Below, in pieces: positions 4,031 to 23,639 of a stretch of 27,638 nt of DNA. The number at the start of each line of letters is the position of its first letter. Positions within the stretch are counted from its first letter, which is position 1. The stretch is taken from the IMG/VR virus record IMGVR_UViG_3300034190_002620, positions 1 to 27,638 of that record; one strand, given 5' to 3'. The stretch comes from a virus. Both the position numbers and the translations under genes were made by a program. The notes under the pieces were generated by a model that was not told where the DNA came from, did not search any database, and saw only the letters and a program-made list of their open reading frames with translations.

Positions 4031-4868
4031 CAACCCCGACATAGTATTTAGGTGTAGAGAAGACCTAATAGATGCAATACCACACCCTGTAGCGGCATCT
4101 AAGATACTGCCTGAATGGTTTAAGAAACTAAGCAGGGATGTGGAAGGGTCTGACAAATCTAGTGTAGGAACTGTAAAAAGATGTATTCCAGTTCTAGATG
4201 CAATGTCTCAAGGATACATAATTCCCCTGTGGGCTGACCTACATGTAAAAATTCATGATGCCTATGTTCTTTACGACAATGATGATAAGGTCATAGATGT
4301 TGTAAAACAAATGAGTGAGTCACCAGAAGACGCTGTTGGTATGGAACACAGTAGCGGTGTTACAATAGCCAGAGTAAAAAAGACTGACGAACCTTATATC
4401 TGGTGTAAGTTTCCTGATCAATTTGATCCTCATGGCGGTGGTGACTTAAGTAATCATAGTTGGCAACAAATGGGTGAGCTTTGCGACCTAAAGAGGTTTA
4501 CTCTGGGCAAAGTTCTAATGAAGTTTCATAATCCTTGGACAATAGAGACTAAAAAAGGTTGGTCTGTATACTTTAAGAACCCTGCTAATAACTGGTCTAA
4601 TGATATACATCTTTTAGAAGGTGTTGTGGATACAGATACATACAAGACAAAAGTTAACTTTCCTTATATATGGACTGGCTCTACTACAGGAGAGTGGATA
4701 ATACCTAAAGGAACGCCCTTAGTTCAAGTTATACCCTTCAAACGTAAACAACTAAAATTGCAAATGGGTTTTACAGACCCCTTTGTAGAAGCTAAGATAA
4801 ACGCAAAACTATCTTCGGTTATGTTTGACAAGTATCGAAGGTTGTTCTGGCACAAGGGAAAAGATTAA
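3999..4868 (+). CDS. Conserved phage protein of unknown function
   Basis: 289 residues, soluble, no signal peptide or membrane segment. The N-terminal part reads DIVFRCREDLIDAIPHPVAA then LPEWFKKL, and a little later VKRCIPVLDAM and GYIIPLWADL. This pattern resembles a conserved phage/marine-virus protein family whose function I do not know. The chosen ATG gives a 32-base overlap with the upstream chaperone gene, with a GGAG about 12 bases upstream. A later start is possible, since homology-like sequence begins around residue 13. The stop TAA overlaps the next ATG (TAATG), implying translational coupling into the lysis cassette. A virion-associated or late accessory role is plausible from position only. 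Confidence 0.7.
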   Translation: MLRTFLRSENNNPDIVFRCREDLIDAIPHPVAASKILPEWFKKLSRDVEGSDKSSVGTVKRCIPVLDAMSQGYIIPLWADLHVKIHDAYVLYDNDDKVIDVVKQMSESPEDAVGMEHSSGVTIARVKKTDEPYIWCKFPDQFDPHGGGDLSNHSWQQMGELCDLKRFTLGKVLMKFHNPWTIETKKGWSVYFKNPANNWSNDIHLLEGVVDTDTYKTKVNFPYIWTGSTTGEWIIPKGTPLVQVIPFKRKQLKLQMGFTDPFVEAKINAKLSSVMFDKYRRLFWHKGKD

Positions 4869-7421: not shown

Positions 7422-7873
7422 TTTATCTCCACTAGTTCACAATCAACAAAAGGTATATGATAAAAGGTTTCATGTTCTGGTATCCTGTATCGAGGTCCCG
7501 AAGCTTCTCTTATTGTGTCCTCAGTCATCTGTGTTGCCTTTATCTTCCAAGCTCTGTCGTAAGTCTTGTTAAGAACATAAAAGAACAGATAGTCGAGGCT
7601 ATCTTCATATTTCTTTATAAGCCTCATTTTTCTAGCAGGTATCCTAACCTCTTTCCAATGAACAGGCCAGTCATATTTCCACTGGGCCTTACGTTCTGCT
7701 TCATGGAAGTATGTAATGTCATTTTTCTGAGATACAACATCTGCGAAATAATTTTCCTCAGAGCTAACGATACAGTGTCCTGTGTTAGTAAGGTATTTTA
7801 TAACAGCTTGCTTAGAGGGTGTGTCTACTTTGTCGTAGACTTCTTTTCTAAAGGGTCGGGTATATACGTTCAT
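7418..7873 (-). CDS. Conserved phage protein, possible nuclease-fold
   Basis: 151 residues, soluble. The central part reads GHCIVSSEENYFADV, then TYFHEAERKAQWKYDWP and WKEVRIPARKMRLI, with a Glu, Asp and ExK-like spacing that could be a PD-(D/E)XK core. It sits between the ribonucleotide reductase and DUF3310 genes, separated from RNR by one base, so it is co-translated with nucleotide-metabolism genes. I recall similar proteins in marine phages as hypothetical. The nuclease idea rests only on the residue pattern. Confidence 0.65.
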   Translation of the reverse strand: MNVYTRPFRKEVYDKVDTPSKQAVIKYLTNTGHCIVSSEENYFADVVSQKNDITYFHEAERKAQWKYDWPVHWKEVRIPARKMRLIKKYEDSLDYLFFYVLNKTYDRAWKIKATQMTEDTIREASGPRYRIPEHETFYHIPFVDCELVEIK

Positions 7874-12150: not shown

Positions 12151-12705
12151 TTATCCGACCATAAACAGTTTATCATCGTCCGAGATAGTGTTATCTCTTT
12201 GATAGGTCACAAGATCTGTAACAGCTACGCCTAATAGTCTGATGCCTGCTCCATTGGAGTAAGTCTCAAACTGAACCTTAGCTTTTGTTCCGTTACCAAG
12301 TTCACCATCTGAGCCTAACTTCCAAGCCCCTTTGTTCTCACCGTTTAACAGGTTAACAACAACTGGTGGTCCACCTAGGTTGTAGCCTTGCTCTTTTGTA
12401 ACAGGGTGTGTCCAGTCTTCACGAATATCGTCAGTAAAAGGTCTACGCATACGCATAAACTTCCCTATCCCATATTCAGGCTTACCTTCTAGTATCCTGT
12501 CATTATTCATAGGTTTCGGGTCGAGGCCATCAGACAACAACTTATCAATTTGAGACTGATCAGTAAAGTAAGCGTTGACTGCAAACTGTCCACCCTTCTT
12601 ATGAATTTCTTGAGCGGCACGAGGGCCATCGGGGTTTCCCATGTCTGCATTTTCAGGGAAAACTTTAGCGTACTCAAGAACCATATCTAATGTGTATCTA
12701 GCCAT
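12151..12705 (-). CDS. Single-stranded DNA-binding protein candidate (gp2.5-like role)
   Basis: 184 residues. The protein is mainly beta-like with many aromatic residues. It ends in an acidic C-terminus followed by a short hydrophobic tip (SDDDKLFMVG), the feature by which phage SSBs contact polymerase and helicase. It is the first gene after a conserved promoter and has a strong AGAAGGAG site about eight bases before its ATG, fitting a highly expressed protein. It lies directly downstream of the DNA polymerase. No OB-fold motif can be proven by eye, so the function is inferred from the tail, the context and the strong ribosome-binding site. Confidence 0.6.
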   Translation of the reverse strand: MARYTLDMVLEYAKVFPENADMGNPDGPRAAQEIHKKGGQFAVNAYFTDQSQIDKLLSDGLDPKPMNNDRILEGKPEYGIGKFMRMRRPFTDDIREDWTHPVTKEQGYNLGGPPVVVNLLNGENKGAWKLGSDGELGNGTKAKVQFETYSNGAGIRLLGVAVTDLVTYQRDNTISDDDKLFMVG

Positions 12706-12731: not shown

Positions 12732-12767
12732 GGTATATATACAGGCTTTTTTCGGGGTTTCAAACAT
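12732..12767 (-). promoter_or_regulatory. Conserved bipartite promoter motif, copy A
   Basis: On the minus strand: GTTTGAAAC (12765-12757), ten bases, then GCCTGTATATATAC, 16 bases from TTGAAA to TATATA. It matches copies B and C exactly in spacing. It lies in the 66-base gap between polymerase and SSB candidate, facing the SSB gene, with the -10-like part about 30 bases before the start codon. Confidence 0.75.
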
Positions 12768-12771
12768 ACAA

Positions 12772-14604
12772 TTAGTGAATTTCTGCATAATTATTTCCAA
12801 ACTGTGCATCTATCCCTAAATCTACGTTTAATTTCAACTTTTTATTAAGTTTACATATCGCTCCTTCCATTTTCTTTTTTGTTTCTTGTTCCTCACCTTG
12901 CTCAACAAGAGCAATGATCTCATCGTGAAACTGGCCTATCGTTTTAATTCCGTTGTGCCTACAGATGGCAACCCAATTATCAAAACAGTAAACTCCAGTT
13001 CCTTGATTTAAAGTGCTAAACCTATCCTTATCTGACCTTAAAGAATACCAGAATTTAGAAACTGGGTTCTGTACCCACATGCCACCAAGGACTTCCCTTA
13101 CCGATAGGGTGCTTGCCACTTTATCTATAGACCAATTACGAGACCAGAAAGCACCTAAAAGCTTTTGTGCATCACTCTTAGACATACCAGTTTCTCTCGC
13201 TAATTTCGCTGCGCCCACCCCATAGGTTGCGGAGTAGTTAACAACTTTGTAATTCTTACGGAGGGACTTCAAAGATCTCTCTCCGCTATTGTGCTTATCT
13301 ATATCAGACTGAGTTATAACCCCTGCATGTTTAGCCAAATCAAGATGGGGATCAAATCCAGGTTTTGACATTTCTGCAACATAGTCGGGATCTAAAGGCT
13401 TCATGTAGTGCCTTTTTGTTGTGTCCTCTAAGGAGGTCATGTCAGCGCCACAGAGAGTGTGTCCCTCTGGTGAAGTAAGGCAGCTTCTTATCTCAGCACC
13501 ATAGGGCCTGTCTACTGATGGTAAATTGACCAGTGGTTTGGCGTGTTTAAACCGTAATGTATTTGTAAGACCTGCGACAGTGGCCTGAACATAACCACCT
13601 CTTTCGTGGGATAACATTGCCTTGAGTATACCAATTCTATGAGTAAGTACAGACAGACCGTCAAGAAGAGAAATACTAGACTCTTTTTCAGATAGTTCCA
13701 AAACGCTTGCACAGAGTTCACCGTCCTTTCTTATTTGTTCTATCTTTCTTTCATTACCATCGTCCTCACGTTTGAATTTATAGGTACGAGGCTTCCAACC
13801 TAAACTATACAGCCAGTCTTTCACTTGATCGTTAGAGTTAGGGTTACCCTGTTCCTCTCCTACTTTAACAGTCAGAGACTGTACACTTTCTGGCATCTTG
13901 TGCTGCTTACAAAGCTCTATCCAACGCTCTCCATGACTGGATAAACTCTTATCCCTCTTGTACATGACTTTAGGTCTTGTCCTAAGTGCGGTCAAAATCC
14001 TAGGTGGCATAGCTTTAGCTAGAGCTATTGTCTTTTGCTCCTTTAGATCTTCCCATTCAGACAGAAACTTACTGGCTTTTGGTACGTCTAATTTCCACTG
14101 GAGGGCCTCCTGCTCTGCAGCACACTCTAGCTTAAACGTAAGGTAATCGATTAACCTCTTTTTCTCTTCAGGGTTAGAGTAAAGCTTATCTAACTTAAAG
14201 TTTAAGTCTCTCCATAGCCTAGCGTTTATCTTTACGTCTTCGTTACACCGATGTGCATACTCTTCCTTAGTTAAGCTCTGCCAGTCATCGATCTTTGGTT
14301 TAGGTACACCATACTCTTCTCCATAGCCCTCTAAGCCATGCCTGTTCCTTTGATGATGTACATACCAAGATAAAGGTAGGGTATCTATCAACCTAGCTGT
14401 AACTTTTATACCAAGCACATTTTCCACTGCAGGGATATCAAATCTAATGATGTTATGTCCAACAAGTTCTTTTGCTTCCGTAAAGAAAATACGCATGGCT
14501 TCATAGTCGTGCGTATGCTGAACATTGCCATTGTTATCTAACCAAGACACAACATGAATTTTTGTACTGTTTAAGCCATCTGTCTCTATGTCGAAAACTG
14601 TCAT
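12772..14604 (-). CDS. polA: Family A DNA polymerase with 3'-5' exonuclease domain
   Basis: 610 residues. The exonuclease domain shows MTVFDIETDG (Asp5, Glu7), VGHNIIRFDIP (Asp56) and CNEDVKINARL (Asp123). The polymerase domain shows motif A GADMTSLED (Asp388, Glu393), motif B LRKNYKVVNYSATYG (Arg449, Lys453, Tyr457, Tyr461-Gly462) and motif C GQFHDEI (His560-Asp561-Glu562). The residue equivalent to E. coli Phe762 is Tyr457, as in T7 polymerase; a Tyr here is linked to fast synthesis and acceptance of dideoxynucleotides. There is no 5' nuclease domain; that activity is encoded separately at 11230-11949. The start overlaps the primase-helicase stop by four bases. Confidence 0.96.
   Translation of the reverse strand: MTVFDIETDGLNSTKIHVVSWLDNNGNVQHTHDYEAMRIFFTEAKELVGHNIIRFDIPAVENVLGIKVTARLIDTLPLSWYVHHQRNRHGLEGYGEEYGVPKPKIDDWQSLTKEEYAHRCNEDVKINARLWRDLNFKLDKLYSNPEEKKRLIDYLTFKLECAAEQEALQWKLDVPKASKFLSEWEDLKEQKTIALAKAMPPRILTALRTRPKVMYKRDKSLSSHGERWIELCKQHKMPESVQSLTVKVGEEQGNPNSNDQVKDWLYSLGWKPRTYKFKREDDGNERKIEQIRKDGELCASVLELSEKESSISLLDGLSVLTHRIGILKAMLSHERGGYVQATVAGLTNTLRFKHAKPLVNLPSVDRPYGAEIRSCLTSPEGHTLCGADMTSLEDTTKRHYMKPLDPDYVAEMSKPGFDPHLDLAKHAGVITQSDIDKHNSGERSLKSLRKNYKVVNYSATYGVGAAKLARETGMSKSDAQKLLGAFWSRNWSIDKVASTLSVREVLGGMWVQNPVSKFWYSLRSDKDRFSTLNQGTGVYCFDNWVAICRHNGIKTIGQFHDEIIALVEQGEEQETKKKMEGAICKLNKKLKLNVDLGIDAQFGNNYAEIH
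14091..14107. repeat. ATTTCCACTG-family repeat inside the polymerase gene
   Basis: ATTTCCACTGGAGGGCC, differing from the consensus only near its end. It is read in the polymerase frame as ...ALQWK..., a different frame from the copies at 15942 and 16425. A weaker relative, TTTCCACTGCAGGG, lies at 14421-14434. Confidence 0.45.
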
Positions 14605-16106
14605 AACACCTCCTTAAGCGTAAAGCTATCTGAGTTAAACTTCATCTTACCTGCTCTACCTTCCTCACTGCAAGGTCGGTTCTTTTGTACGCTAATGTAT
14701 GTTGTATTGCGCTCGTCATAATCTTCTGACTCTTTGTCACGCTGCAGGTCTATGATAACGGATGCACGTTGTCCTATCATCTTACAATACTTAGGGTCAC
14801 CATTTTCATTTGTATGTGCAATCGTAACTATCCCTACATTTAGTTCTGCTGCAAGTTTCGACAATCTTATAGATAAATCAGCAAGCATAGCTTCTTTGCT
14901 TTCCTCAGATGTGCCAACAACAACATCTTGGATAGGTTCAAAGAAAACAAACTTACAGTCACAAGCTTGACTGAAAAACCGTATCTGATCGCAAAGTTCA
15001 TCTGCGCCTTGACCATCAGGTAAATAGAACTGATAAAAGTTTTCATCTTTGGTTAACTCAGAGATAGACTCTACAACATCGTCTTCAGCTTGTTTTTGTT
15101 CTATGAGATCCCTTCGGGTAAGGTTGTCATTCCTATGATAGGAAACTAAACCTAGTAAGCTTCTTAGCTTTGTCTCTTCTAAGTGCCAAGCTGCAATCGG
15201 TATGTCCCTCTGTAACATGTTGTATTCTAGATACCTCATAATCTCTGTCTTACCTATACCAGTCGGAGCCTTTATAACTGTAAAGTGTCCCTGCATTAAA
15301 CCTAAAATCTTGTCATCTAAAGCTTGTATGCCTGTTGGTACATACTGATGTTCTGGTGTGTCGTGATACAAAGTTAAGAATTGTTCTGTACTGTTAAGGA
15401 CATTCTCTGGTGTGTGCTTTTGTGGTTTAAACCAAGCTGACTTAAATTCCTGGATTGCGTCACGCTGCAAGAAATCATTCGCATCTTTATACTTGTCGTG
15501 AGGTACACGGTACACCTTGTTTGGGAACAGCCTAGCAACACGGTCAGCTACAGCATTGCCTGCATCATCGTTATCTACAGACAACACGATACGTTCAAAA
15601 CTGTTTAACCAGTCAGAGCAGTTCTCCCATAATTTCTTCGAGGGGGTCGCTGATGGTAGCGACACAACAGGATTGATGTACTGGCTCTTAAGCATTTGAG
15701 CGACAGACAATGCGTCTAGCTCACCTTCGGTTATTGTTACTGTCTTAGAGCAGCCTGCAGTGTAAAGGTTCATACCGAACAATTCATCACCTCGAAAGCC
15801 TTCTTTGGTGTAGAACTTCTTATCAGATATACAACGAACCTTAACACCACCTGAAGGATAAATATATTCTTGTTTATCTCCGTAAGTTAGTACGTTGTAG
15901 TCTTTCATAGTTTGTTGATTTATCCCTCGCATGGCCTCATAATTTCCACTGGAGGGGTCAGGTTTTCTTATCTCCACTATTTTCTCCGAGCTTAGTTTGC
16001 CCTTCGCTTGGCACGAGTGGCAATAGTAAACATTCTTTTCCTCATTGTAACTGTAGCAATCCTTGTGACCACAGTGAGGACATTCTTGATGTGTTATTTC
16101 TACCAT
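14601..16106 (-). CDS. Bifunctional primase-helicase (T7 gp4-like)
   Basis: 501 residues. A zinc ribbon (Cys9, Cys12, Cys29, Cys32), Toprim motifs (TEGELDALSV, Glu127; LSVDNDDAG, Asp178-Asp180) and a DnaB-type RecA helicase core follow in order. The helicase has a Walker A variant KAPTGIGKTE (about 279-288), AAWHLEET, VFFEPIQDV as motif II, and GIVTIAHTN. It unwinds the fork and makes primers for the polymerase encoded directly downstream. Residues DPSSGN near position 50 are encoded by one copy of the ATTTCCACTG repeat (15942-15958). Its leader carries promoter copy B and an inverted repeat. Confidence 0.95.
   Translation of the reverse strand: MVEITHQECPHCGHKDCYSYNEEKNVYYCHSCQAKGKLSSEKIVEIRKPDPSSGNYEAMRGINQQTMKDYNVLTYGDKQEYIYPSGGVKVRCISDKKFYTKEGFRGDELFGMNLYTAGCSKTVTITEGELDALSVAQMLKSQYINPVVSLPSATPSKKLWENCSDWLNSFERIVLSVDNDDAGNAVADRVARLFPNKVYRVPHDKYKDANDFLQRDAIQEFKSAWFKPQKHTPENVLNSTEQFLTLYHDTPEHQYVPTGIQALDDKILGLMQGHFTVIKAPTGIGKTEIMRYLEYNMLQRDIPIAAWHLEETKLRSLLGLVSYHRNDNLTRRDLIEQKQAEDDVVESISELTKDENFYQFYLPDGQGADELCDQIRFFSQACDCKFVFFEPIQDVVVGTSEESKEAMLADLSIRLSKLAAELNVGIVTIAHTNENGDPKYCKMIGQRASVIIDLQRDKESEDYDERNTTYISVQKNRPCSEEGRAGKMKFNSDSFTLKEVL
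15942..15958. repeat. ATTTCCACTG-family repeat inside the primase-helicase gene
   Basis: ATTTCCACTGGAGGGGT, encoding DPSSGN on the minus strand. It is one of about seven good copies between 14.1 and 19.4 kb. Confidence 0.55.
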
Positions 16107-16113
16107 AGTTTCC

Positions 16114-16138
16114 TACTTAAGTTTATTATAATTAAGTA
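16114..16138. repeat. Inverted repeat in the primase-helicase leader
   Basis: TACTTAA (16114-16120), 11 bases, TTAAGTA (16132-16138). It lies between promoter copy B and the primase-helicase start codon, starting about 15 bases after the -10-like element. The sequence ACTTAAGT (16115-16122) also recurs after promoter copy C. Confidence 0.55.
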
Positions 16139-16151
16139 TGAATAATACTAA

Positions 16152-16189
16152 CGTATATACATACAGGCTTTATAAAAAGTTTCAAACAT
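16152..16189 (-). promoter_or_regulatory. Conserved bipartite promoter motif, copy B
   Basis: On the minus strand GTTTGAAAC (16187-16179), ten bases, GCCTGTATGTATATACG. It starts two bases after the stop codon of the sigma-like gene and faces the primase-helicase gene. Element identity and spacing match copies A and C; the TA-rich part is shifted by a short insertion of a further TATG unit. Confidence 0.72.
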
Positions 16190-16734
16190 CACAAATTGTT
16201 ACAAAGTTTTTCAATAGCTGACTTTTCCTTTCTTGATACCCACATTTGGTTGTGACCTATGTCTTCTGCCACTTTATCTTGTGATAGGCCATCCCAAAAT
16301 CTTTTTCTAATAATTATCCATTCCTCCTGATCGAGACAACTTATCGCAACCTTAAAGATGTGATCGATTAACTGTTTTCTTTCCAAAAGGGTCTCTGTTG
16401 ACTCAGTGAGCGCCATGTCCTCTCTTATTTCCACTGAGGGGGTATACAATGCTTTTTGTAGAGCTAATGAAGTCCAACCACCCTTTCTATCGTCAGATTT
16501 TGTAGAGTGGGCCTTACTAGATTTTGGAACATGAACAACCTTTCTTTTGTGGTTGTAATAATCGTTCATAGCCGTTCGAGCATGGCTTTTAATTTTCTTA
16601 TAGTCTCTGTTACCTTTTTTAACTTCTTCGAGGCACTTGATAACGCCCTCTGAAACTAAGTCATGATACTCTTGACCGTCAGAATATCTCTTAGCAAGAC
16701 TCCTACAAAGTTTTAATATTTCCTGCTCTGTCAT
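16189..16734 (-). CDS. Phage RNA polymerase sigma factor-like protein
   Basis: 181 residues from ATG 16734. This start is preferred to a GTG at 16764 because AGGGA lies eight bases upstream and it overlaps the previous stop as TGATG. The N-terminal half resembles sigma-70 region 2: YHDLVSEGVIKCLEEV, then KSHARTAMNDYYNHKRK, which matches the helix that binds core polymerase and the -10 element. The C-terminal part is a region 4-like HTH: CLDQEEWIIIRKRFWDGLSQ, then VAEDIGHNQMWVSRKEKSAI. Between them is a Lys/Ser-rich linker. It could direct host RNA polymerase to phage promoters; the conserved promoter motif lies directly downstream. It could instead be a DNA-binding regulator with only sigma-like ancestry. 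One ATTTCCACTG repeat lies inside the gene. Confidence 0.7.
   Translation of the reverse strand: MTEQEILKLCRSLAKRYSDGQEYHDLVSEGVIKCLEEVKKGNRDYKKIKSHARTAMNDYYNHKRKVVHVPKSSKAHSTKSDDRKGGWTSLALQKALYTPSVEIREDMALTESTETLLERKQLIDHIFKVAISCLDQEEWIIIRKRFWDGLSQDKVAEDIGHNQMWVSRKEKSAIEKLCNNL
16425..16443. repeat. ATTTCCACTG-family repeat inside the sigma-like gene
   Basis: TTATTTCCACTGAGGGGGT, the fullest form of the consensus. On the minus strand it is read as TPSVEI in the linker of the sigma-like protein, a different frame from the copy in the primase gene. Confidence 0.55.
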
Positions 16735-16895
16735 CACTCTTCCCTCAAACAAAAATCGCACCACTCGTTATGAGTAGGCGCACCACAACTGACACATTTT
16801 CCAGTGTTAGCTTTTTCTTTCTCCTTTGCTCTTTGTCTCTCTTCCCTTGTCATCGGCCTTATTTTTTGCACTGGTCTTATCATGGCTGCTCTCAT
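16734..16895 (-). CDS. Zinc-ribbon microprotein upstream of the sigma-like gene
   Basis: 53 residues. A basic N-terminal half (REERQRAKEKEKA) precedes a four-cysteine ribbon, CVSCGAPTHNEWCDFC, ending LREE. Both ends are translationally coupled: its ATG overlaps the upstream stop (TAATG) and its TGA overlaps the sigma start (TGATG). Zinc ribbons next to sigma factors can be anti-sigma or co-activator proteins, but many phage zinc ribbons have unknown roles. The ORF, coupling and cysteines are seen directly; any partnership with the sigma-like protein is inference. Confidence 0.65.
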   Translation of the reverse strand: MRAAMIRPVQKIRPMTREERQRAKEKEKANTGKCVSCGAPTHNEWCDFCLREE

Positions 16896-17053
16896 TAAAA
16901 TAATAACTCCCCATTTTCATCGAAGGGGTTCCTTGATAGTGCAAGAAGGGCATCTTCCTCGTCTAGCTTTACTTCCTCAGCTAACTCCTCTAATTCCCCT
17001 ACTGGGGGAAGAACGCCCATCATATCTAAAATAATTTCTATGTCTCTGTCCAT
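16895..17053 (-). CDS. Small acidic protein upstream of the zinc ribbon
   Basis: 52 residues, strongly acidic (many Glu and Asp), beginning MDRDIEIILDMMGVLPPVG and ending NPFDENGELLF. It overlaps the upstream HTH-like gene by 16 bases, and its TAA forms TAATG with the zinc-ribbon start. No family recognised. The dense overlaps argue that it is a real gene. Confidence 0.55.
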   Translation of the reverse strand: MDRDIEIILDMMGVLPPVGELEELAEEVKLDEEDALLALSRNPFDENGELLF

Positions 17054-17253
17054 CGCTTTGTCCTTGGTTTAGTTTCTCTATATCTATGATCATGATGCAA
17101 CTCATAAGCATAGCTTGGCGATATCTGCCAATATCTAGCAGCCGCTGCAACACTGCGAAATGTTTTACCGAATAGCCTACACTCCAACTGGTTTTGAACT
17201 CTTGTCGGATGATACTTTATTCGAGCGTGTGCATGTAAGTTTTTAGGTTGCAT
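17038..17253 (-). CDS. Small basic HTH-like protein
   Basis: 71 residues, basic. The central stretch LFGKTFRSVAAAARYWQISP then SYAYELHHDHRYRE resembles the 'F.SV..AA..lgis...v' helix-turn-helix of NUMOD1-like or small phage DNA-binding proteins. It abuts the SleB-like hydrolase gene, sharing one base. It may bind DNA; the target is unknown. The family likeness is weak. Confidence 0.55.
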   Translation of the reverse strand: MQPKNLHAHARIKYHPTRVQNQLECRLFGKTFRSVAAAARYWQISPSYAYELHHDHRYRETKPRTKRWTET

Positions 17254-17648
17254 TATTCCCCCTTTGGTGCAGTGTAAAAGATGTGGTCTCCGACCCTACC
17301 ATCTTTGTTATATTTCTTTGACCAGTACGGCCTTACAGAAGCTGCGTGATAGTGAGTAGAGGTGATTGATGTGTCTCCCCTGTTGTAAACTTCTAAGGCC
17401 ACTGTACGAGCTACTATGGCGGCCCTCCAGTCGATTGAGTTTTTTATGTGTGCCTCGATACGATCAGACAAACCATCATGAGTAAATGAGAATTGTTTAT
17501 ACTGAAAAACAACATCACAAATTCCATTAGGCCACCTGTCACTCTCGACCCTGTTCATTACTACCTCAGCTACAGCAAACTGTCCTTCGATAGGTTCGTT
17601 GCGGCTCTCAAAGAAAACCGCAACTGCTAAACACTCAAGCCCTATCAT
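17253..17648 (-). CDS. SleB-type cell wall hydrolase
   Basis: 131 residues. The Hydrolase_2 (SleB) signature is clear: LAVAVFFESRNEPIEGQFAV with catalytic-type Glu14, then AEVVMNRV, CDVVFQYKQFSF and, near the end, STHYHAASVRPYWS and GDHIFY. The family cleaves peptidoglycan, usually as lytic transglycosylases. There is no signal peptide. It lies in the minus-strand replication operon, away from the M15 endolysin in the late cassette, so the phage carries two unrelated wall-active enzymes. The start ATG overlaps the upstream stop by four bases. Confidence 0.85.
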   Translation of the reverse strand: MIGLECLAVAVFFESRNEPIEGQFAVAEVVMNRVESDRWPNGICDVVFQYKQFSFTHDGLSDRIEAHIKNSIDWRAAIVARTVALEVYNRGDTSITSTHYHAASVRPYWSKKYNKDGRVGDHIFYTAPKGE

Positions 17649-17881
17649 GTTAACTCTAGAACTCTATCTGTATAGAAAGATTTATATACAGCAGCTTCTT
17701 TGGGTATGCCTGCAAGCTGCATAATAACTAGGTTACTGTAAGGCCCTGCTTTCTCTCGCATATCTTGAACCTTACCAAGATACTCACGCTCTTCACCTTG
17801 GTTAGTCTCGAACTTGATACGAAAGTATCTGCCTTGTTTACTACGAAGTTTTGCTTCTACTAGATCAGTTTTCAGTGTCAT
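17645..17881 (-). CDS. Small phage protein of unknown function
   Basis: 78 residues from ATG 17881, selected because AAGGAG lies seven bases upstream; the frame is open to 17941, but that part crosses an ATTTCCACTG repeat. It reads MTLKTDLVEAKLRSKQGRYF, then REYLGKVQDMREKAGPYSN and ends DRVLELT. Soluble, mixed charge, no known motif. Confidence 0.6.
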   Translation of the reverse strand: MTLKTDLVEAKLRSKQGRYFRIKFETNQGEEREYLGKVQDMREKAGPYSNLVIMQLAGIPKEAAVYKSFYTDRVLELT

Positions 17882-17891
17882 ATTAATCTCC

Positions 17892-17910
17892 TTATTTCCA
17901 CTGATAGGGT
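17892..17910. repeat. ATTTCCACTG-family repeat just upstream of a start
   Basis: TTATTTCCACTGATAGGGT in the gap between the C5 methyltransferase and the next gene. On the minus strand its 3' end runs into the AAGGAG ribosome-binding site of the gene starting at 17881. Confidence 0.55.
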
Positions 17911-17943
17911 TATGAATGATTCGTTTAATTAAGTCAAGCATTA

Positions 17944-18720
17944 TTACAACCTTTCTCCCAATGCTTCACAAATTGGATTGCTATATCGCAGGGATTGCAT
18001 GGTTGCACAGTTAGCATTGAACACCGCTTGAGCAAAGCCACGAGGCGTTGCGCTGCGTATGTTTTTAGTCTTCATAGATTTACCGCCAAGCTTCAAGTGC
18101 TGTCGGCTATGTCCTGTCTCAGGTTCCACTGGTGACTTGTCAGGCATAGTAAAGCCACCACCTGTCCAAAGGCAAGTCTTCTTGGGGTATGCATCCATAG
18201 GTGCAATGTAGTCAGGCCACTTGGGATGCTCCGCTTGTTCGGGGTCAATGTAGCCGCCATACTCGTATGGGTGGAAGCTGTAGTCAGGTTTACGCCATAG
18301 AGTAGACAGCACACTAACAGGGTTTTCTATAAAGTATGGACAACCCAATGTGTTAAACAATCTCGCACACCATACGGCATAACTTGCAGCCTCATCTTGA
18401 AAACTGGGATTAGCTTCACGCTTTTTTGCAAAGTGGGCAGCCCCGCTGACAGATAAGTGAGTACATACAGGGAAGGCCATAGCGAATGTGACCTCCTTAT
18501 TAGAAAAGAAAGCGTGTATGTCATTAAGGGTACGATTATCGTGCAAGTCAGCATACCTATACTTGATCGTGCCTCCACTCTCGAATGTTTCAGTTACCTT
18601 GTTTTCGTGTTGAATATCAAAGGCATGGCACTGATACCCTGCCTCAGCCCAAGGCTTTAAAGCTTCGCCTGTATAGTCGTATAGACTAATTACATATTTA
18701 TCTTGATTATGATTTTTCAT
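17944..18720 (-). CDS. C5-cytosine DNA methyltransferase-like protein
   Basis: 258 residues from ATG 18720, which has GGAGG six bases upstream; an in-frame ATG at 18765 overlapping the previous gene is possible. Motif I-like SLYDYTGEALKPWAEAGYQ, then AFPVCTHLSVSG, where Cys86 occupies the catalytic Pro-Cys position, FIENPVSVL corresponding to the ENV motif VI, KKTCLWTGG, and SATPRGFAQAVFNAN near the C-terminus. These features fit a small phage C5-cytosine methylase that lacks a large target-recognition domain. It could methylate genomic cytosine for protection from restriction, or act earlier in a base-modification pathway. No cognate nuclease lies nearby. Confidence 0.8.
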   Translation of the reverse strand: MKNHNQDKYVISLYDYTGEALKPWAEAGYQCHAFDIQHENKVTETFESGGTIKYRYADLHDNRTLNDIHAFFSNKEVTFAMAFPVCTHLSVSGAAHFAKKREANPSFQDEAASYAVWCARLFNTLGCPYFIENPVSVLSTLWRKPDYSFHPYEYGGYIDPEQAEHPKWPDYIAPMDAYPKKTCLWTGGGFTMPDKSPVEPETGHSRQHLKLGGKSMKTKNIRSATPRGFAQAVFNANCATMQSLRYSNPICEALGERL

Positions 18721-18761
18721 AGCACCCTCCATGCTGTTGTTTTTGTACCCAAAAAATTTAG

Positions 18762-19082
18762 TCATCGGTCATTACTCTTCTCTCTATCTGCTATCTCGTC
18801 CATTCTGCAGATCATAACATTAAAAGCAACACCTAAATCTTTGAGGGATGCTTTCTCTGCACACTCTTTTATCGTTGTCCAAGGGTGATTATATTTTGGA
18901 GTCGTTACCTGCTTTTCCTCTACTATTTCTTTTGCAGCCGTATCTATGTGGCCTGTAAAATCATTAAGCCATTTCAATAGGTTGGGTTTGTCAGTAGGAA
19001 CCTCAACCATCGAGGCTCCGATCTTTTTTGCTTCGGCTTGAGTTCCTACCCACTCGCCTAATTTATTTGCATATAGTCTCAT
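18762..19082 (-). CDS. Small conserved phage protein, unknown function
   Basis: 106 residues, soluble. It begins MRLYANKLGEWVGTQAEAKK and continues with MVEVPTDKPNLLKWLND, a start pattern that I recall in marine phage hypothetical proteins. The C-terminal half is helical. It shares a base with the upstream zinc-finger gene and overlaps the region before the methyltransferase, so it is co-transcribed. Confidence 0.65.
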   Translation of the reverse strand: MRLYANKLGEWVGTQAEAKKIGASMVEVPTDKPNLLKWLNDFTGHIDTAAKEIVEEKQVTTPKYNHPWTTIKECAEKASLKDLGVAFNVMICRMDEIADREKSNDR

Positions 19083-19246
19083 TAGTCTTTCCTTAAGATT
19101 ATTAAATACTCATCGCCTACATCTTGATAGACAACACTCTCATCAGCGCAATCTTCACAAAGTATAACTCCACACTCTGTATGTACACTGTCATTGTGCA
19201 TCATTGATCCCTCGCAGAAGTCACATGTCTTTATTGTGTTTTCCAT
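19082..19246 (-). CDS. Zinc-finger microprotein at the head of the minus-strand operon
   Basis: 54 residues from ATG 19246, with CGGAG about eight bases upstream; the frame is open further upstream but that part consists of repeat sequence. It holds CDFC, then HTECGVILCEDC, a four- to five-cysteine plus histidine pattern able to bind zinc. It is the most upstream gene of the minus-strand operon, so it is likely expressed very early. Its role could be regulatory, but no family is recognised. Confidence 0.6.
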   Translation of the reverse strand: MENTIKTCDFCEGSMMHNDSVHTECGVILCEDCADESVVYQDVGDEYLIILRKD

Positions 19247-19270
19247 TTCATTTCTCCGTTGTTCGAATCG

Positions 19271-19299
19271 TTTGTACCAATTTCCACTGAGGGGGTCAA
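19271..19299 (-). promoter_or_regulatory. Possible early promoter of the minus-strand operon
   Basis: On the minus strand TTGACC (19299-19294), 17 bases, TACAAA (19276-19271), about 25 bases ahead of the first gene's start. The -10 match is moderate, and the spacer is one of the ATTTCCACTG repeats. Confidence 0.35.
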
Positions 19300-19422
19300 C
19301 AAAATAATTTTCAACTTGTATGAGTAATGGAGGGTGACTCATATTTCCACTGGTGGGGGTCCTTATTTCCACTGGTGGGGTCAACAAAATAATTTTTTTT
19401 CAACTTGTGTGAGTAATGGAGG
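19279..19422. repeat. Imperfect ~55-base direct repeats with ATTTCCACTG motifs
   Basis: Copy 1 (19281-19333) and copy 2 (19366-19422) share TTTCCACTG, GGGGTCAACAAAATAATTTT, CAACTTGT.TGAGTAATGGAGG; copy 2 has four extra T. A short copy of the motif lies between (19343-19360). The period between the long copies is 85 bases. Confidence 0.8.
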
Positions 19423-19433
19423 AAGGGGTTCCT

Positions 19434-19529
19434 GATTCGTTCTTTGTTGATGATTCGTTTCTGATTCGTTCTAGTTTCATGATTCGTTTCTGATTCGTTT
19501 TCTCGTACATGATTCGTTCCTGATTCGTT
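19434..19529. repeat. Iteron array: seven GATTCGTT copies
   Basis: Copies start at 19434, 19452, 19463, 19481, 19492, 19511 and 19522, alternating 18 and 11 base steps (one step is 19), so pairs recur every 29-30 bases. Degenerate GATTCG copies follow at 19590 and 19605. Regular spacing near whole helical turns, in non-coding A+T-rich DNA, suggests binding sites for a replication initiator or regulator. Confidence 0.75.
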
Positions 19530-19637
19530 TTTTAAGCTTATAGCATTGCATAAATTGCATATCTGATATTTATTTTTTGCATAGCTCATGATTCGATTTT
19601 GCAAGATTCGAGTCTCTGTACGTCAAGACCACTTTTT

Positions 19638-19652
19638 GCATAGCTGCTATGC
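19638..19652. repeat. Inverted repeat GCATAGC-T-GCTATGC
   Basis: A perfect seven-base inverted repeat with one central base, in a run of TTGCAT repeats. TTTTTTGCATAGCT is also present near 19573. Operator-like in size. Confidence 0.5.
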
Positions 19653-19768
19653 ATTTATTGCATACCTACAAAATGTTCTATTTGCGACATTTTTTTACTT
19701 GACATGTCGTAAACAGTCCCAGGTCTAAATACGTCATTTTATGTAATAAAACCGACATTTTGGGCATT

Positions 19769-19787
19769 TTGAGTATCGAATACTCAA
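19769..19787. repeat. Operator-like palindrome TTGAGTAT-CGA-ATACTCAA
   Basis: Perfect eight-base arms with a three-base centre, about 170 bases upstream of the plus-strand gene at 19955. The size fits a binding site for a dimeric repressor. Confidence 0.55.
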
Positions 19788-19887
19788 TGTAAGCGTCACT
19801 GAGTAGGGCGAATCACTTTTTTTGATATAGACTTAATAAAACCCCTTTCGGCTCTGTACGGGCTTCTTAGGGCTTCTCAAGGTATAC

Positions 19888-19917
19888 TTGACTCTTTTTA
19901 CCGAATCATAGTACAAG
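19888..19917 (+). promoter_or_regulatory. Possible promoter for the plus-strand island
   Basis: TTGACT (19888-19893), 18 bases, TACAAG (19912-19917), about 38 bases before ATG 19955. The -35 is good and the -10 weak. Confidence 0.3.
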
Positions 19918-19954
19918 TTATTCATAGACAATAAAAACTTAGGAAAGAATCAAA

Positions 19955-20173
19955 ATGCCTACTAATAAGGATAAATTTTTTATCAAGTGTTACTTTGAAG
20001 AAATTAAAACTTTAATTGAAACCTTGGAAAAATTAGAGATTAGCGAAAAAGTTATTGAACAGGTTATCTCTGAGTCAACGATTCTCATGCATAGGTATGA
20101 TGAGATGAGTCGTAAAATGGCTAGAATTGCCAAAAATATAGATCATACTTTAAAACCGAAAGGATTAATTTAA
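19955..20173 (+). CDS. Small helical protein, unknown function
   Basis: 72 residues, mostly helical with coiled-coil character (YFEEIKTLIETLEKLEISEK, then DEMSRKMARIAKNI). AGGAAAG lies about seven bases before the ATG. It is the first gene of an A+T-rich plus-strand group that is opposite in direction to the neighbouring replication operon. No family recognised. Confidence 0.6.
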   Translation: MPTNKDKFFIKCYFEEIKTLIETLEKLEISEKVIEQVISESTILMHRYDEMSRKMARIAKNIDHTLKPKGLI

Positions 20174-20174
20174 A

Positions 20175-20273
20175 ATGGGTATTCTAATTTTCACAATGGG
20201 TTTTATTTTGGTAGCTGCTTTGGCGGCTGCTATCGTTGATTTGATTTTATGGCTACAAAATAGGGGCTTATAA
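20175..20273 (+). CDS. 32-residue membrane peptide
   Basis: The ATG lies two bases after the preceding stop. The peptide is almost entirely one hydrophobic segment (FTMGFILVAALAAAIVDLIL) with a short polar tail WLQNRGL. TAATG coupling joins it to the next small gene. A single-TM micropeptide of this type could be an inhibitor or toxin, but only topology is visible. Confidence 0.5.
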   Translation: MGILIFTMGFILVAALAAAIVDLILWLQNRGL

Positions 20274-20413
20274 TGTTTGAAGTATGGATCAAAAGAAATG
20301 ATAACTGGAGGTTGTCCGCTGCTATTGGTTATCAATCAACATATCTACAAGATATTTTAATAAGTTTATATAATGACAAAAGTGTACAACAATTGAAAGT
20401 GATAAAATGTTAA
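20273..20413 (+). CDS. 46-residue protein, unknown function
   Basis: Begins MFEVWIKRNDNWRLSAAIGY. Its start overlaps the upstream stop (TAATG) and its end overlaps the start of the 290-aa gene by seven bases. No motif is recognised; the coupling on both sides argues for a true gene. Confidence 0.5.
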   Translation: MFEVWIKRNDNWRLSAAIGYQSTYLQDILISLYNDKSVQQLKVIKC

Positions 20414-21279
20414 TTAATCAATTCCCGAAAAACAATAGCCAAGTGTTAAAAGAGCATTATAATTCACCATTTTGGCAATTAGTGAGAGATCATGCAAACG
20501 CTAAAATTCGAGCTGCATTACGACCAAACAATACTTTAATATGGGATAAATTGCCCAATATATTAAGCACTAATCCAAAAGTTGAGAAATCACCAGATAC
20601 AGACGAAAAATTCTTAGTTAATATTATCCACCTTGCTCCCTCTTGGGCTTCTCTATTCAATACTTGTTCTAGAGCAACGATTGGTTGCGGCACTAATTGC
20701 CTAAATGAGTCGGGACATGGACAAAGACATATGATCAATAATGGTAGTCATACGGTGCATGTAGCTAGAGTCATACGCTCTATTATTTGGTTTAAGTATA
20801 GAGACCAATTTAAAGCAAAAGCACAAAGAGAAATAGACTCCCTTAAGCGTAAAGCGTTTAAACTTGGTGCGACTCCAGTGTTGCGACCTAATGGAACAAG
20901 TGATTTAAAATTTGAGTCTTTATGGCCCCAATTGTTTAACGATAATCATGATCTAGTTATTTATGATTATACTAAAGACTCCAATCGTGACGTTAGTCAT
21001 TTATCAAACTATTACTTGTGTTATTCAGTAAGTGAAGACTCAACACAACAACAAATAGAGCAAGCTTTTAGTAATGGATTAAATTGTATTGTTGTCTTTA
21101 GAATAAATAAAACACAACCTAAACCGATTCATTATAACGGACGGCCCGTTATTGATTGCGATAAGCATGACCTACGATTTCTCGACCCTATCGGAGTCTA
21201 TGGCGGCCTATCATGTAAAGGAAATACGGCCATAAAAGACTCTACGGGTTTTGTTAAAGATGTTCCCCAATATGCATGA
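20407..21279 (+). CDS. 290-aa conserved plasmid/phage-type protein, unknown function
   Basis: Soluble protein with a Cys/Gly-rich motif in the first half (LAPSWASLFNTCSRATIGCG then NCLNESGHGQRH), followed by RVIRSIIWFKYRDQF, GATPVLRPNGTSDLKFESLW, VIYDYTKDSN, CIVVFRINK and DKHDLRFLDPIGVYGGLSCK. I recall this order of motifs from uncharacterised proteins of phages and marine plasmids (possibly the DUF7227 or Gp88-like group), but I cannot confirm the family. The cysteines may bind metal. It is the main gene of an A+T-rich, plus-strand island and ends just before a strong terminator, so it is transcribed separately from structural and replication genes. Confidence 0.75.
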   Translation: MLINQFPKNNSQVLKEHYNSPFWQLVRDHANAKIRAALRPNNTLIWDKLPNILSTNPKVEKSPDTDEKFLVNIIHLAPSWASLFNTCSRATIGCGTNCLNESGHGQRHMINNGSHTVHVARVIRSIIWFKYRDQFKAKAQREIDSLKRKAFKLGATPVLRPNGTSDLKFESLWPQLFNDNHDLVIYDYTKDSNRDVSHLSNYYLCYSVSEDSTQQQIEQAFSNGLNCIVVFRINKTQPKPIHYNGRPVIDCDKHDLRFLDPIGVYGGLSCKGNTAIKDSTGFVKDVPQYA

Positions 21280-21406
21280 TTTTTTCCTAGGGATAGACTC
21301 CCCAACTTGGCGACTCTTCGGAGTCGTCTTTTTTCTTTTATGCTCAATGGTTTATATTGTGTACTATACAAGCGTTTATTTACTCTTGATTAAACTTAAG
21401 CTTTAA
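21272..21406 (+). CDS. Possible 44-residue membrane peptide overlapping the terminator
   Basis: Starts eight bases before the end of the preceding gene and reads through the terminator hairpin. The product has a strongly hydrophobic segment (LFGVVFFLLCSMVYIVYYTS) and ends LLLIKLKL. Overlap with an excellent terminator argues against it; the coherent TM character and overlapping start argue for it. Confidence 0.3.
   Translation: MHDFFLGIDSPTWRLFGVVFFLLCSMVYIVYYTSVYLLLIKLKL
21311..21338 (+). terminator. Strong intrinsic terminator after the plus-strand island
   Basis: CGACTC (21311-21316), TTCG tetraloop, GAGTCG (21321-21326), then TCTTTTTTCTTTT. A UUCG-capped stem with a U tract isolates the island from the structural operon. 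Confidence 0.85.
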
Positions 21407-21669
21407 ACGTGACATGGGGAAGCTTGGCGATTCGCCCTCCGAGCGCAAGTATTTTATTTGTTTGTCAAGAACTTTCTTATAAACTGTTGTATTTTTACCA
21501 TAGTCGTTACTTTTTTTCTCGTTAGGGGGTTGACAAGGGTGGGACCCTCCAGAAAATACCGAATCGAATCAGCCGGGGGCGCAACCGACCCCATGTCCGA
21601 AAACAAAATATTTGTCAAGAAAAAAGATTCGTTTAAATACAATGGCTTGTAAAAAAGTTTCCTAGTGTG

Positions 21670-21703
21670 TGTTTGAAACAACAAAAAAAGCCTGTATATA
21701 TAG
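21670..21703 (+). promoter_or_regulatory. Conserved bipartite promoter motif, copy C
   Basis: GTTTGAAAC (21671-21679), ten bases, GCCTGTATATATAG. Spacing and both elements match copies A and B, and it points toward the terminase, portal and fibre genes. It is about 200 bases upstream of the terS start, giving a long leader. Confidence 0.78.
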
Positions 21704-21713
21704 AGTAACAGAC

Positions 21714-21791
21714 ATACTTAAGTATTCTACTATAGAAATGGGATATATAATTATTATATTATATCCCATAAACTTAAGTATTATACTTAAG
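21714..21791. repeat. Palindrome cluster in the structural-operon leader
   Basis: ATACTTAAGTAT (21714-21725) is a perfect 12-base palindrome near the expected transcription start. A hairpin with arms ATGGGATATA (21738-21747) and TATATCCCAT (21760-21769) follows, and then CTTAAGTAT-T-ATACTTAAG (21773-21791). ACTTAAGT also occurs in the leader after promoter copy B. Confidence 0.65.
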
Positions 21792-21798
21792 AAGGGTT

Positions 21799-21888
21799 TT
21801 CCCAAGTCAACCATGACAAATCTTTACGGCATACCTGTCGATTTCTTGTTGTTTATTAAGAGAATAGTCATGCCGATGCACTTGGGAA
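21799..21888 (+). promoter_or_regulatory. Long-range stem in the terS leader, covering the probable RBS
   Basis: Outer arms TTCCCAAGT (21799-21807) and ACTTGGGAA (21880-21888), inner arms CATGAC (21812-21817) and GTCATG (21867-21872). The only SD-like sequence before terS, GGGAA, lies in the outer right arm, ten bases before the ATG. Confidence 0.45.
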
Positions 21889-21898
21889 TTTTATTATC

Positions 21899-22297
21899 AT
21901 GGATCAAAATTTAGCATTGAAATATAGTGAAGTAATCGCAAAGAAGGTACGAGAAGGTATCCGTAATGGTGTATCTGTTAAAGACATCATGGGATCAATA
22001 CAGAAGTATCAATATGCACCTGCGTCTACATCTACGTTGTATAAACTCTACGGTGAAACAATTGCCGAAGAGAGAGCAAGTATTGTAGGTCAAGTAGGTT
22101 CTGTTGTTGTGCAGCAAGCTCTAGATGGCGATTTTAAAGCTGCAGAGTTTTTCCTCAGATCTAAAGGAGGGTGGTCACCCACTCAAACTATCAATGAGGT
22201 TGAGCAGACAGAAGATCCAGACATGGATGAGAGTGCTATTGATACGCTTATGACACTGCTAGGCAAAACATCCGATGAAGAAAATAACAGCGAGTGA
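21899..22297 (+). CDS. terS: Terminase small subunit candidate
   Basis: 132 residues. The N-terminal half is a helical, HTH-like DNA-binding region (KKVREGIRNGVSVKDIMGSI, then YAPASTSTLYKLYGE), the middle is helical (VVVQQALDGDFKAAEFFLRS) and the C-terminus is acidic. This organisation and its position directly before the large subunit (23-base overlap) fit TerS, which recognises phage DNA and feeds it to TerL. The ribosome-binding site is weak and may be enclosed in a leader stem. Confidence 0.8.
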   Translation: MDQNLALKYSEVIAKKVREGIRNGVSVKDIMGSIQKYQYAPASTSTLYKLYGETIAEERASIVGQVGSVVVQQALDGDFKAAEFFLRSKGGWSPTQTINEVEQTEDPDMDESAIDTLMTLLGKTSDEENNSE

Positions 22298-23639
22298 ACT
22301 GAGAAGTTTATCCCCTGCGAAGCTACAAAGTGTATTAGAGACTTTAGGTCCTAAGAAGACACAAGAGCTACAACACACATGGGAGTTCTGGGCAAGACCA
22401 GAGCAATTAGAACCTGAAGGTGATTGGAACATATGGATAGCCCTAGCAGGTCGAGGTTGGGGTAAAACCAGAGCAGGTGTTGAATGGGTTAGGCATCAGG
22501 TCAAATCTGGAAAGAGAAGGATTGCTGCTGTTGCTCCAACAAACTCTGATATTAGAAGGGTTATGGTAGAAGGGGAGTCAGGCTTCCTAAATACCTGTTG
22601 GAAGGGCGACAAAACTTACCGTGGCGCAGACCTCGGTTTTCCTAACTGGTCTCCTACAAACAGGACTTTAACGTGGGAAAATGGCGCAAAAGTAGAGTTC
22701 TACTCAGCCGAAGACCCAGAGAGACTTAGGGGACCACAGTTTCACGCTGCTTGGGCAGACGAAGTAGCTGCTTGGAGAAATCAGCAAGACGTTTGGGATA
22801 TGTTGCAGTTTACCCTGCGACTAGGTAGAAAGCCAAGAGTAATGGTAACTACTACTCCTAGACCGACTAAGTTGATGAGAACACTTATAAAGTCTAATGA
22901 TAGTCATGTTACAAGTGGTTCAACCTTTGATAACATAGACAATTTAGCGAAACCGTTCTTAGATACTGTAAGAAAAGAGTATGAAGGAACTCGTCTAGGT
23001 AGACAGGAGCTTTATGCCGAAGTATTAGAAGAAGCGGATGGAGCGCTTTGGACAACTGAAATACTAGATAGTTGTCTTGTAGAGAAGAAAGATATACCAG
23101 AACTAAACAGGATTGTAGTTGCAATAGACCCTGCTGTGACTGCAAACATAGAGTCAGATATGACAGGTTTAGTTGTTGCAGGTATAGATGTAAACGGAGT
23201 AGGATATGTCCTTGAAGATGCCACCAATAGGTACACTCCTGCAGAATGGGCTGCGAAAGCTGTATCGTTATATAGTGACTATAGTGCTGATCGTATTGTT
23301 GCAGAACGCAATCAAGGCGGTGAAATGGTTCGCAGAACGCTTGAAGCAGAAAGCGAAACCGTTCCTATCAGGCTTGTACACGCTAGTCGAGGAAAAATGG
23401 CTAGGGCTGAACCTATATCTGCACTCTACGAAAGAGGCCGTGTTAAACACGTTAAGGGCCTTGATGAACTGGAAACGCAAATGAGAACATGGGAGCCTCT
23501 AGGTTCCATTGGATCTCCCGACAGACTAGACGCATGTGTATGGGCATTAACGGACTTAATGCTTAATGGTGTGAACAACCCTACAGTTCGCCTCTCTTAC
23601 GCTTCCGCAAAGGGTCTTAACGAAGTATATTTAGGTTAA
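22275..23639 (+). CDS. terL: Terminase large subunit
   Basis: 454 residues. ATPase domain: Walker A IALAGRGWGKTRAG (about 55-68), Walker B HAAWADEVAAW (Asp162, Glu163) and coupling motif VMVTTTPRPTK (about 189-199). Nuclease domain: VVAIDPAVTANIESDMTGLV (Asp285, Asp295) and a C-terminal Asp in DRLDACVWALTDL. It translocates DNA into the procapsid and cuts it. The AGRGWGKTRAG pattern resembles terminases of siphophages and of alphaproteobacterial gene transfer agents. Length is normal and all key residues are present. Confidence 0.95.
   Translation: MKKITASELRSLSPAKLQSVLETLGPKKTQELQHTWEFWARPEQLEPEGDWNIWIALAGRGWGKTRAGVEWVRHQVKSGKRRIAAVAPTNSDIRRVMVEGESGFLNTCWKGDKTYRGADLGFPNWSPTNRTLTWENGAKVEFYSAEDPERLRGPQFHAAWADEVAAWRNQQDVWDMLQFTLRLGRKPRVMVTTTPRPTKLMRTLIKSNDSHVTSGSTFDNIDNLAKPFLDTVRKEYEGTRLGRQELYAEVLEEADGALWTTEILDSCLVEKKDIPELNRIVVAIDPAVTANIESDMTGLVVAGIDVNGVGYVLEDATNRYTPAEWAAKAVSLYSDYSADRIVAERNQGGEMVRRTLEAESETVPIRLVHASRGKMARAEPISALYERGRVKHVKGLDELETQMRTWEPLGSIGSPDRLDACVWALTDLMLNGVNNPTVRLSYASAKGLNEVYLG

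Follow-up and report, generated by a model that had tools for sequence, protein, structure and literature searches.

The window, that is, the whole 27,638-nucleotide stretch of viral DNA analysed here, raises the question of whether a sigma-like protein encoded beside one of three promoter-like sites is what reads all three of them, or whether the sites belong to something else. The sequence-only reading of this DNA had described a bipartite motif at three intergenic sites, and a motif search of the window upheld this: GTTTGAAAC-N10-GCCTGTA occurs without mismatch at 12740-12765 (-), 16162-16187 (-) and 21671-21696 (+), with 3 of 3 copies intergenic and none inside a gene, as compared with a chance expectation in shuffled sequence of 0.23 matches with three mismatches allowed. 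No fourth exact copy was found in the whole 27,638-base viral contig. All three sites have a promoter-style layout, TTTGAA-N17-TATRTA, with GCCTG abutting the -10 (Table 1). The GCCTG had been noticed before and is indeed part of the motif, but it was then taken for a piece of the spacer; in the usual notation it lies directly before the -10 and is therefore part of an extended -10 element and not of a neutral spacer. Each copy had also been said to aim at a functional gene block, which holds for all three, with promoter A facing the SSB-like gene and the genes down to ribonucleotide reductase, promoter B the primase-helicase and DNA polymerase, and promoter C TerS, TerL and the structural genes. 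The SSB-like protein has no match in Pfam or PHROGs and is 57% identical to a hypothetical protein of Roseobacter phage CRP-6. As for the sigma-like open reading frame, it does lie beside copy B, at a distance of one base (stop TGA, then T, then G) and not of two as previously given.

Table 1. Positions in the window of the predicted sigma factor gene, its putative contact segments, the three candidate promoters and genes of the blocks they face
Feature	Position	Strand	Evidence or sequence
Phage sigma factor gene (predicted), 181 aa	16189..16734	-	Pfam, PHROGs, AlphaFold2 and Foldseek
Codons of region 4.2 recognition helix segment, approx. residues 159-170 (GHNQMWVSRKEK)	16225..16260	-	Covaries with the 5' (-35) element
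Codons of last region-2 helix and next segment, approx. residues 47-75 (SHARTAMNDYY...VPKSSKA)	16510..16596	-	Covaries with the 3' (extended -10) element
Promoter A (candidate)	12736..12765	-	GTTTGAAAC-N10-GCCTG-TATATA; -35 12764-12759, -10 12741-12736
Promoter B (candidate)	16158..16187	-	GTTTGAAAC-N10-GCCTG-TATGTA; -35 TTTGAA 16186-16181, -10 TATGTA 16163-16158
Promoter C (candidate)	21671..21700	+	GTTTGAAAC-N10-GCCTG-TATATA; -35 21672-21677, -10 21695-21700
SSB-like protein	12151..12705	-	First gene past promoter A; name from the sequence-only reading
Family A DNA polymerase	12772..14604	-	phrog_17 3.8e-103, PF00476 8.8e-19
Primase-helicase	14601..16106	-	phrog_239 1.6e-89; first gene past promoter B
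Small terminase-like protein (TerS)	21899..22297	+	Adjoins TerL; homologous to CRP-6 gp65; first gene past promoter C
Large terminase (TerL)	22275..23639	+	PF03237 1.8e-26; 67.5% identity to CRP-6 terminase

The sigma-like identity of the protein was checked by HMM searches and structure prediction, which agree with it. Region 2 occupies approximately residues 3-63 and region 4 approximately residues 130-180. Region 4 matches Pfam Sigma70_r4 (PF04545) above the cut-off (3.5e-9, 36.5 bits against a cut-off of 24.1), while the match of region 2 to Sigma70_r2 (PF04542) is weak and under the cut-off (9.5e-4, 19.4 bits against 24), though in the right place and order; in PHROGs the protein matches sigma families 351 and 1740. 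When compared with the PDB, a profile built from 52 homologues matched SigB and SigF best, followed by SigA and RpoD, and the group profile aligned to SigA regions 2-4. The AlphaFold2 model (mean pLDDT 78) contains helices at residues 3-17, 23-39 and 45-63 and a C-terminal helix-turn-helix with its recognition helix at 163-180, the linker 66-112 being poorly predicted and the mutual placement of the two domains not confident (pTM 0.38). Searched with Foldseek, the model comes closest to the SigB subunit in an open complex, and SigA was also matched. With regard to a possible ECF assignment, region 4 fits PF04545 best, and the leading PDB matches are sigmas of groups 1 and 3, not ECF. Judging by profiles and modelled fold, the protein is most probably a sigma-70-type phage sigma factor, one that would consist of regions 2 and 4 only.

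Among isolated phages the nearest is Roseobacter phage CRP-6 (MK613348), which has the same gene blocks in the same order, with identities of 67% for TerL, 70% for the primase-helicase, 72% for ribonucleotide reductase and 70% for polA, and whose gp14, annotated as hypothetical, is the homologue of the window sigma. This phage group is reported to be ubiquitous in the ocean, and no description of the sites or of the sigma was found in the searched text of the CRP-6 paper (PMC6918029). Relatives were obtained as IMG/VR contigs with sigma, primase, SSB and TerS as queries, CRP-6 being added to them, and the window itself shows the mark of the CRP-6-type group, replication and packaging genes in shared order with sigma before primase. 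In the relatives and in CRP-6 alike, the sigma gene precedes the primase-helicase and sites are found at the three corresponding places, i.e., the sites are kept where the sigma gene is kept. Their geometry is constant at these places while their sequence is specific to the lineage: the sites read GTATAAAAT..GCACTTA in L026, L027 and L029, GTCTAAGAT..GCCCTTA in L023 and GTTGACTNN-N10-RGACGTCATA in CRP-6, which differs from the window phage in this respect and whose sigma has an overall identity of no more than about 29%. When 29 different B sites were compared at the A or C region of a genome, the one from that genome was best in 30 of 32 comparisons, and half-sites differ in close relatives even though the flanks are nearly identical (L023/L026, L052/L053). 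Scanning the complete CRP-6 genome (44.9 kb) gave exactly three zero-mismatch sites, whose -10 elements lie at 4093, 8032 and 42183 of MK613348, and no further match with fewer than four mismatches, and whole-contig scans of contigs of 47.4 kb and 42.1 kb also gave exactly three each, extending the three-site picture of the sequence-only reading to whole genomes.

Departures from agreement within a genome are found at site A of L072 (GTTACA, as against GTCTA at its B and C sites), in the 3' element of site A in L051 and in that of site C in L031; these may be either assembly chimeras or recombinants so recent that the other promoters have yet to follow. The exact motif of the window was present in 13 contigs, among which the same replication genes are encoded by L005 and L009 alone; the others look like chance matches and were discarded. 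No prophage relatives were found in bacterial genomes by tblastn. Many relatives (L018, L020, L021, L072, L077, L083 and L086) carry an insert of approximately 1.4 kb that separates sigma and site B from the primase-helicase, site B remaining beside the sigma gene.

Since site B lies directly behind the sigma gene, protein and target are visible together in each contig. About 80 such pairs were read and 39 unique combinations entered the statistics, a count that exceeds the effective sample size, the sequences being related and mostly metagenomic contigs. Recognition-helix classes pair with 5' elements across diverged backbones: NKMWVSR goes with GTTACA, NQKWVSR with GTCTAA, NQVWVHR with GTATAA, S/T-KQA with GTTGAC, NQSTVSR with GCATAA, TQRQVSR with GTCTAG and the NQMWVSR of the window with GTTTGA. 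At the end of region 2, SHARTAM is paired with the 3' element GCCTGTA, SHAKATM with GCACTTA, AAKRVMF with GCCGTTA and SAA(I/V)xM with GTACATA, while YREANRAM goes with ATCCCTA if KHNVARR comes next and with GTCCCTA if KSWTARD does.

The association of the 5' element with the region 4.2 helix persists when the other segments are removed (partial Mantel r 0.605, 0/2000 permutations, in tests that include locus L109, whose B site was wrongly extracted) and when the permutation is made inside backbone clades (0/5000), although permutations leave some relatedness in these statistics; among the 39 unique combinations, the 5' element showed no association with other sigma segments. Different-clade pairs with an identical helix core had identical 5' pentamers in 5/5 cases, as opposed to 0/480 for those sharing at most 2 of 6 core residues. 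Within-clade permutation ties the 3' element to the last region-2 helix (5/5000) and to the segment that follows (9/5000), the separation from descent being less clean than for the 5' element because the 3' element correlates with the backbone too, and no association with region 4 was found by permutation (3875/5000). The link between sigma and sites, previously only supposed, is thus supported by residue-to-base covariation, which suggests a readable code in which the 5' element goes with region 4.2 and the 3' element with the end of region 2.

Excess variability of the contact segments was seen in one clade (18/28 as against 33/153 variable positions, p 1.5e-5) and was dropped as general evidence, two other clades, in which the exchanged stretches are longer, giving p 0.35 and 0.30. 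There is also a hint at the level of a single residue at the start of the recognition helix, S/T-K-Q-A occurring with TGAC and S/T-R-Q-A with TTGC in the -35, across diverged backbones (L034, L100 and L173 compared with L059, L142, L032, L103, L289 and L329).

Natural recombinants are, as we see it, stronger evidence for the link between module and half-site than the permutations. The L030 protein matches L026 in the region-2 segment (36/36) and L018 in the helix (15/15), and its site is composed of GTCTAAAAT, as in L018, and GCACTTA, as in L026. Similarly, the N-terminal half of L053 is that of L052 (44/44, 36/36) and its helix that of L056 (15/15, compared with 7/15 for L052), while its 5' element is as in L056 and its 3' element as in L052; in L048 and L049, helix and 5' element are common to both, and region 2 and the 3' element differ. 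The rules leading from helix to 5' element were fixed before new contigs were collected, and the predicted element was present in all seven new sequences with a listed helix, namely L281 and L285 (NQKWVSR), L283 and L286 (NKMWVSR), L289 and L329 (S/T-KQA) and L270 (TQRQVSR), of which L283 and L270 are close to known sequences, the backbones of the remaining five being far more diverged. One further sequence, L326 (GQMWVSR), is a near miss of the window rule, with TTAGA in place of TTTGA.

These data bear directly on other possible readers of the sites. If the sites were ordinary strong host sigma-70 promoters and the sigma-like gene acted elsewhere, the resemblance of TTTGAA-N17-TATATA to TTGACA-N17-TATAAT, with its 17-bp spacing and TATA-like -10, would be accounted for, as would the GTTGAC class of the relatives, which resembles the consensus -35. 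However, the -35 of most relatives (TTACAA, TCTAAA, TATAAA, CATAAT) is far from TTGACA and yet the sites of each genome match, covariation ties the 5' element to the recognition helix of the phage protein even where backbones have diverged, and a host sigma-70 would be unable to impose a different 3' element on each phage lineage; a simple sigma-70 scan of 16000-22300 also lists neither B nor C. We consider this reading very improbable, and the earlier suggestion that the sites are read by a modified host polymerase, independently of the phage sigma, is likewise disfavoured.

A role for the sites as targets of another phage activator or repressor, or in replication or packaging, with the sigma-like protein as a bystander, might be favoured by the 10-bp gap of the bipartite site, which could suit a dimer, and by the further dispersed repeats present in the phage. 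It is hardly credible given that the half-sites are not inverted copies of one another, that the sites always lie just before gene blocks and are oriented along them, and that their divergence is explained by two separate sigma segments, the very ones expected from sigma structures. Finally, a single-subunit T7-type RNA polymerase encoded outside the window could be imagined, the window being a fragment of a genome of approximately 45 kb with replication genes like those of podoviruses. The earlier observation that no phage RNA polymerase is visible in the window was borne out by a PF00940 search, which found none in the window, in the full CRP-6 genome or in any of five large relatives and which recognised the enzyme of Pelagibacter phage HTVC041P, used as positive control, at 4.6e-94; the published CRP-6 description reports an RNA polymerase gene in CRP-7 and none for CRP-6 (PMC6918029). 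This leaves such a polymerase with next to no probability.

The window sigma, on comparative evidence, almost certainly reads the three sites, and we regard as very probable the explanation as a whole, in which an early phage sigma works with the host core polymerase at three promoters and has had its recognition modules recoded and reshuffled. Early genes, including the sigma gene, would be read by the host holoenzyme, after which the phage sigma would bind and take over host core RNA polymerase and start transcription at A, B and C, turning on two replication blocks and the packaging/structural block, together or in a sequence that may depend on promoter strength. The region 4.2 recognition helix would read the 5' element GTTTGAAAC (-35), and the last region-2 helix with the segment after it would read GCCTGTA (the extended -10 and the start of the -10). 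The sigma gene has no site upstream of it, and the sigma therefore apparently does not drive itself. Across the phage group, recombination would recode and reshuffle both modules, with the three sites following; the -35 of site B is separated from the helix codons by about 60 bases, which allows a single short exchange to replace the two together, after which A and C must follow.

In temperate phages, repressor/operator specificities diversify. By analogy, the recoding of orthologous late sigmas, with freely recombining -35 and -10 modules that drag their promoters along, might be driven by conflict with co-infecting related phages, satellites or host defences, the latter sensing or exploiting the phage sigma; we put forward this reading, the part played by host defences included, tentatively and as rather unlikely in its entirety.

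Other elements of the window were also noted. A dispersed repeat, ATTTCCACTGNNGGGG(TC), is found at 19282-19380 and also at 7677, 14093, 14422, 15944, 16429 and 17896; its core TTCCACTG has 12 copies on the + strand of the window and none on the - strand, is clustered in tandem in a non-coding stretch at 19.3 kb and is present in approximately 200 collected loci, nearly always on the strand opposite sigma and primase. It may be an element of an origin or one used by the primase (GGGGTC). A leader resembling a hairpin (CCCAAGTCAACCATGAC ... GTCATGCCGATGCACTTGGG) lies at 21801-21890, between promoter C and TerS, and is also conserved in CRP-6, among others, the loop motifs TCAACC and TGCCGATG being kept while the outer stem letters vary; it has no Rfam match and is maybe a late-operon leader RNA, e.g., an antiterminator. 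Palindromes of the ACTTAAGTA type are located at 21700-21800 and 16106-16150, in the leaders behind promoters C and B, and recur in the window, CRP-6 and relatives.

Phage sigma regulons as such are already known. Salmonella phage 7-11 encodes the sigma SaPh711_gp47, with late promoters GTAAtg-(16)-aCTA tested in vitro (PMC8948821), and resembles the present case in having a phage sigma with region 4, bipartite promoters, few sites before late blocks and, as presumed for the window phage, use of the host core polymerase; it differs in being another type of phage with eight promoters instead of three. The phiEco32 sigma phi32_gp36 serves a small number of middle and late promoters whose genome positions are conserved (PMC8948821, PMC4331800), and the window group would work like phiEco32 and 7-11, with three sites at conserved places. 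The phiEco32 promoters consist of a single element (tAATGTAtA) without a -35, and phi32_gp36 has no recognisable region 4. The two known sigmas are approximately 15% alike and were judged independent acquisitions (PMC8948821); specificity there differs between unrelated sigmas, whereas in the CRP-6 group it differs between orthologues, half by half. In engineered chimeric ECF sigmas, domain 2 reads the -10 and domain 4 the -35, and swapped domains read chimeric promoters (PMC3817407); those chimeras are laboratory constructs combining two ECF subgroups, while the phage swaps are natural, within one family, and are followed by the genomic sites. Clostridial SigI paralogues have diverged in promoter specificity through non-conserved residues of a C-terminal helix-turn-helix (PMC10575876), but they are paralogues in one cell with anti-sigma partners, and their C-terminal domain has no homology to region 4, unlike the phage sigmas, which are orthologues in competing phages. 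No natural, recombination-driven recoding of both halves within a single family of orthologous phage sigmas turned up in searches of the open-licence literature, and what appears to be new, on sequence evidence, is one sigma family in which both recognition modules have been naturally recoded and reshuffled.

Phage sigma regulons have so far been known singly, whereas here approximately 120 related sigmas each adjoin one of the promoters that they would read, and a residue-to-base code for region 4.2, and likewise for the region 2/extended -10 segment, thereby becomes directly testable. The same set is a source of ready-made orthogonal sigma/promoter pairs. For the phages themselves, the finding names the promoters of an abundant and hardly studied marine group, gives CRP-6 gp14, now annotated as hypothetical, a predicted sigma function, and raises the question of why abundant marine phages keep altering the specificity of their central switch.
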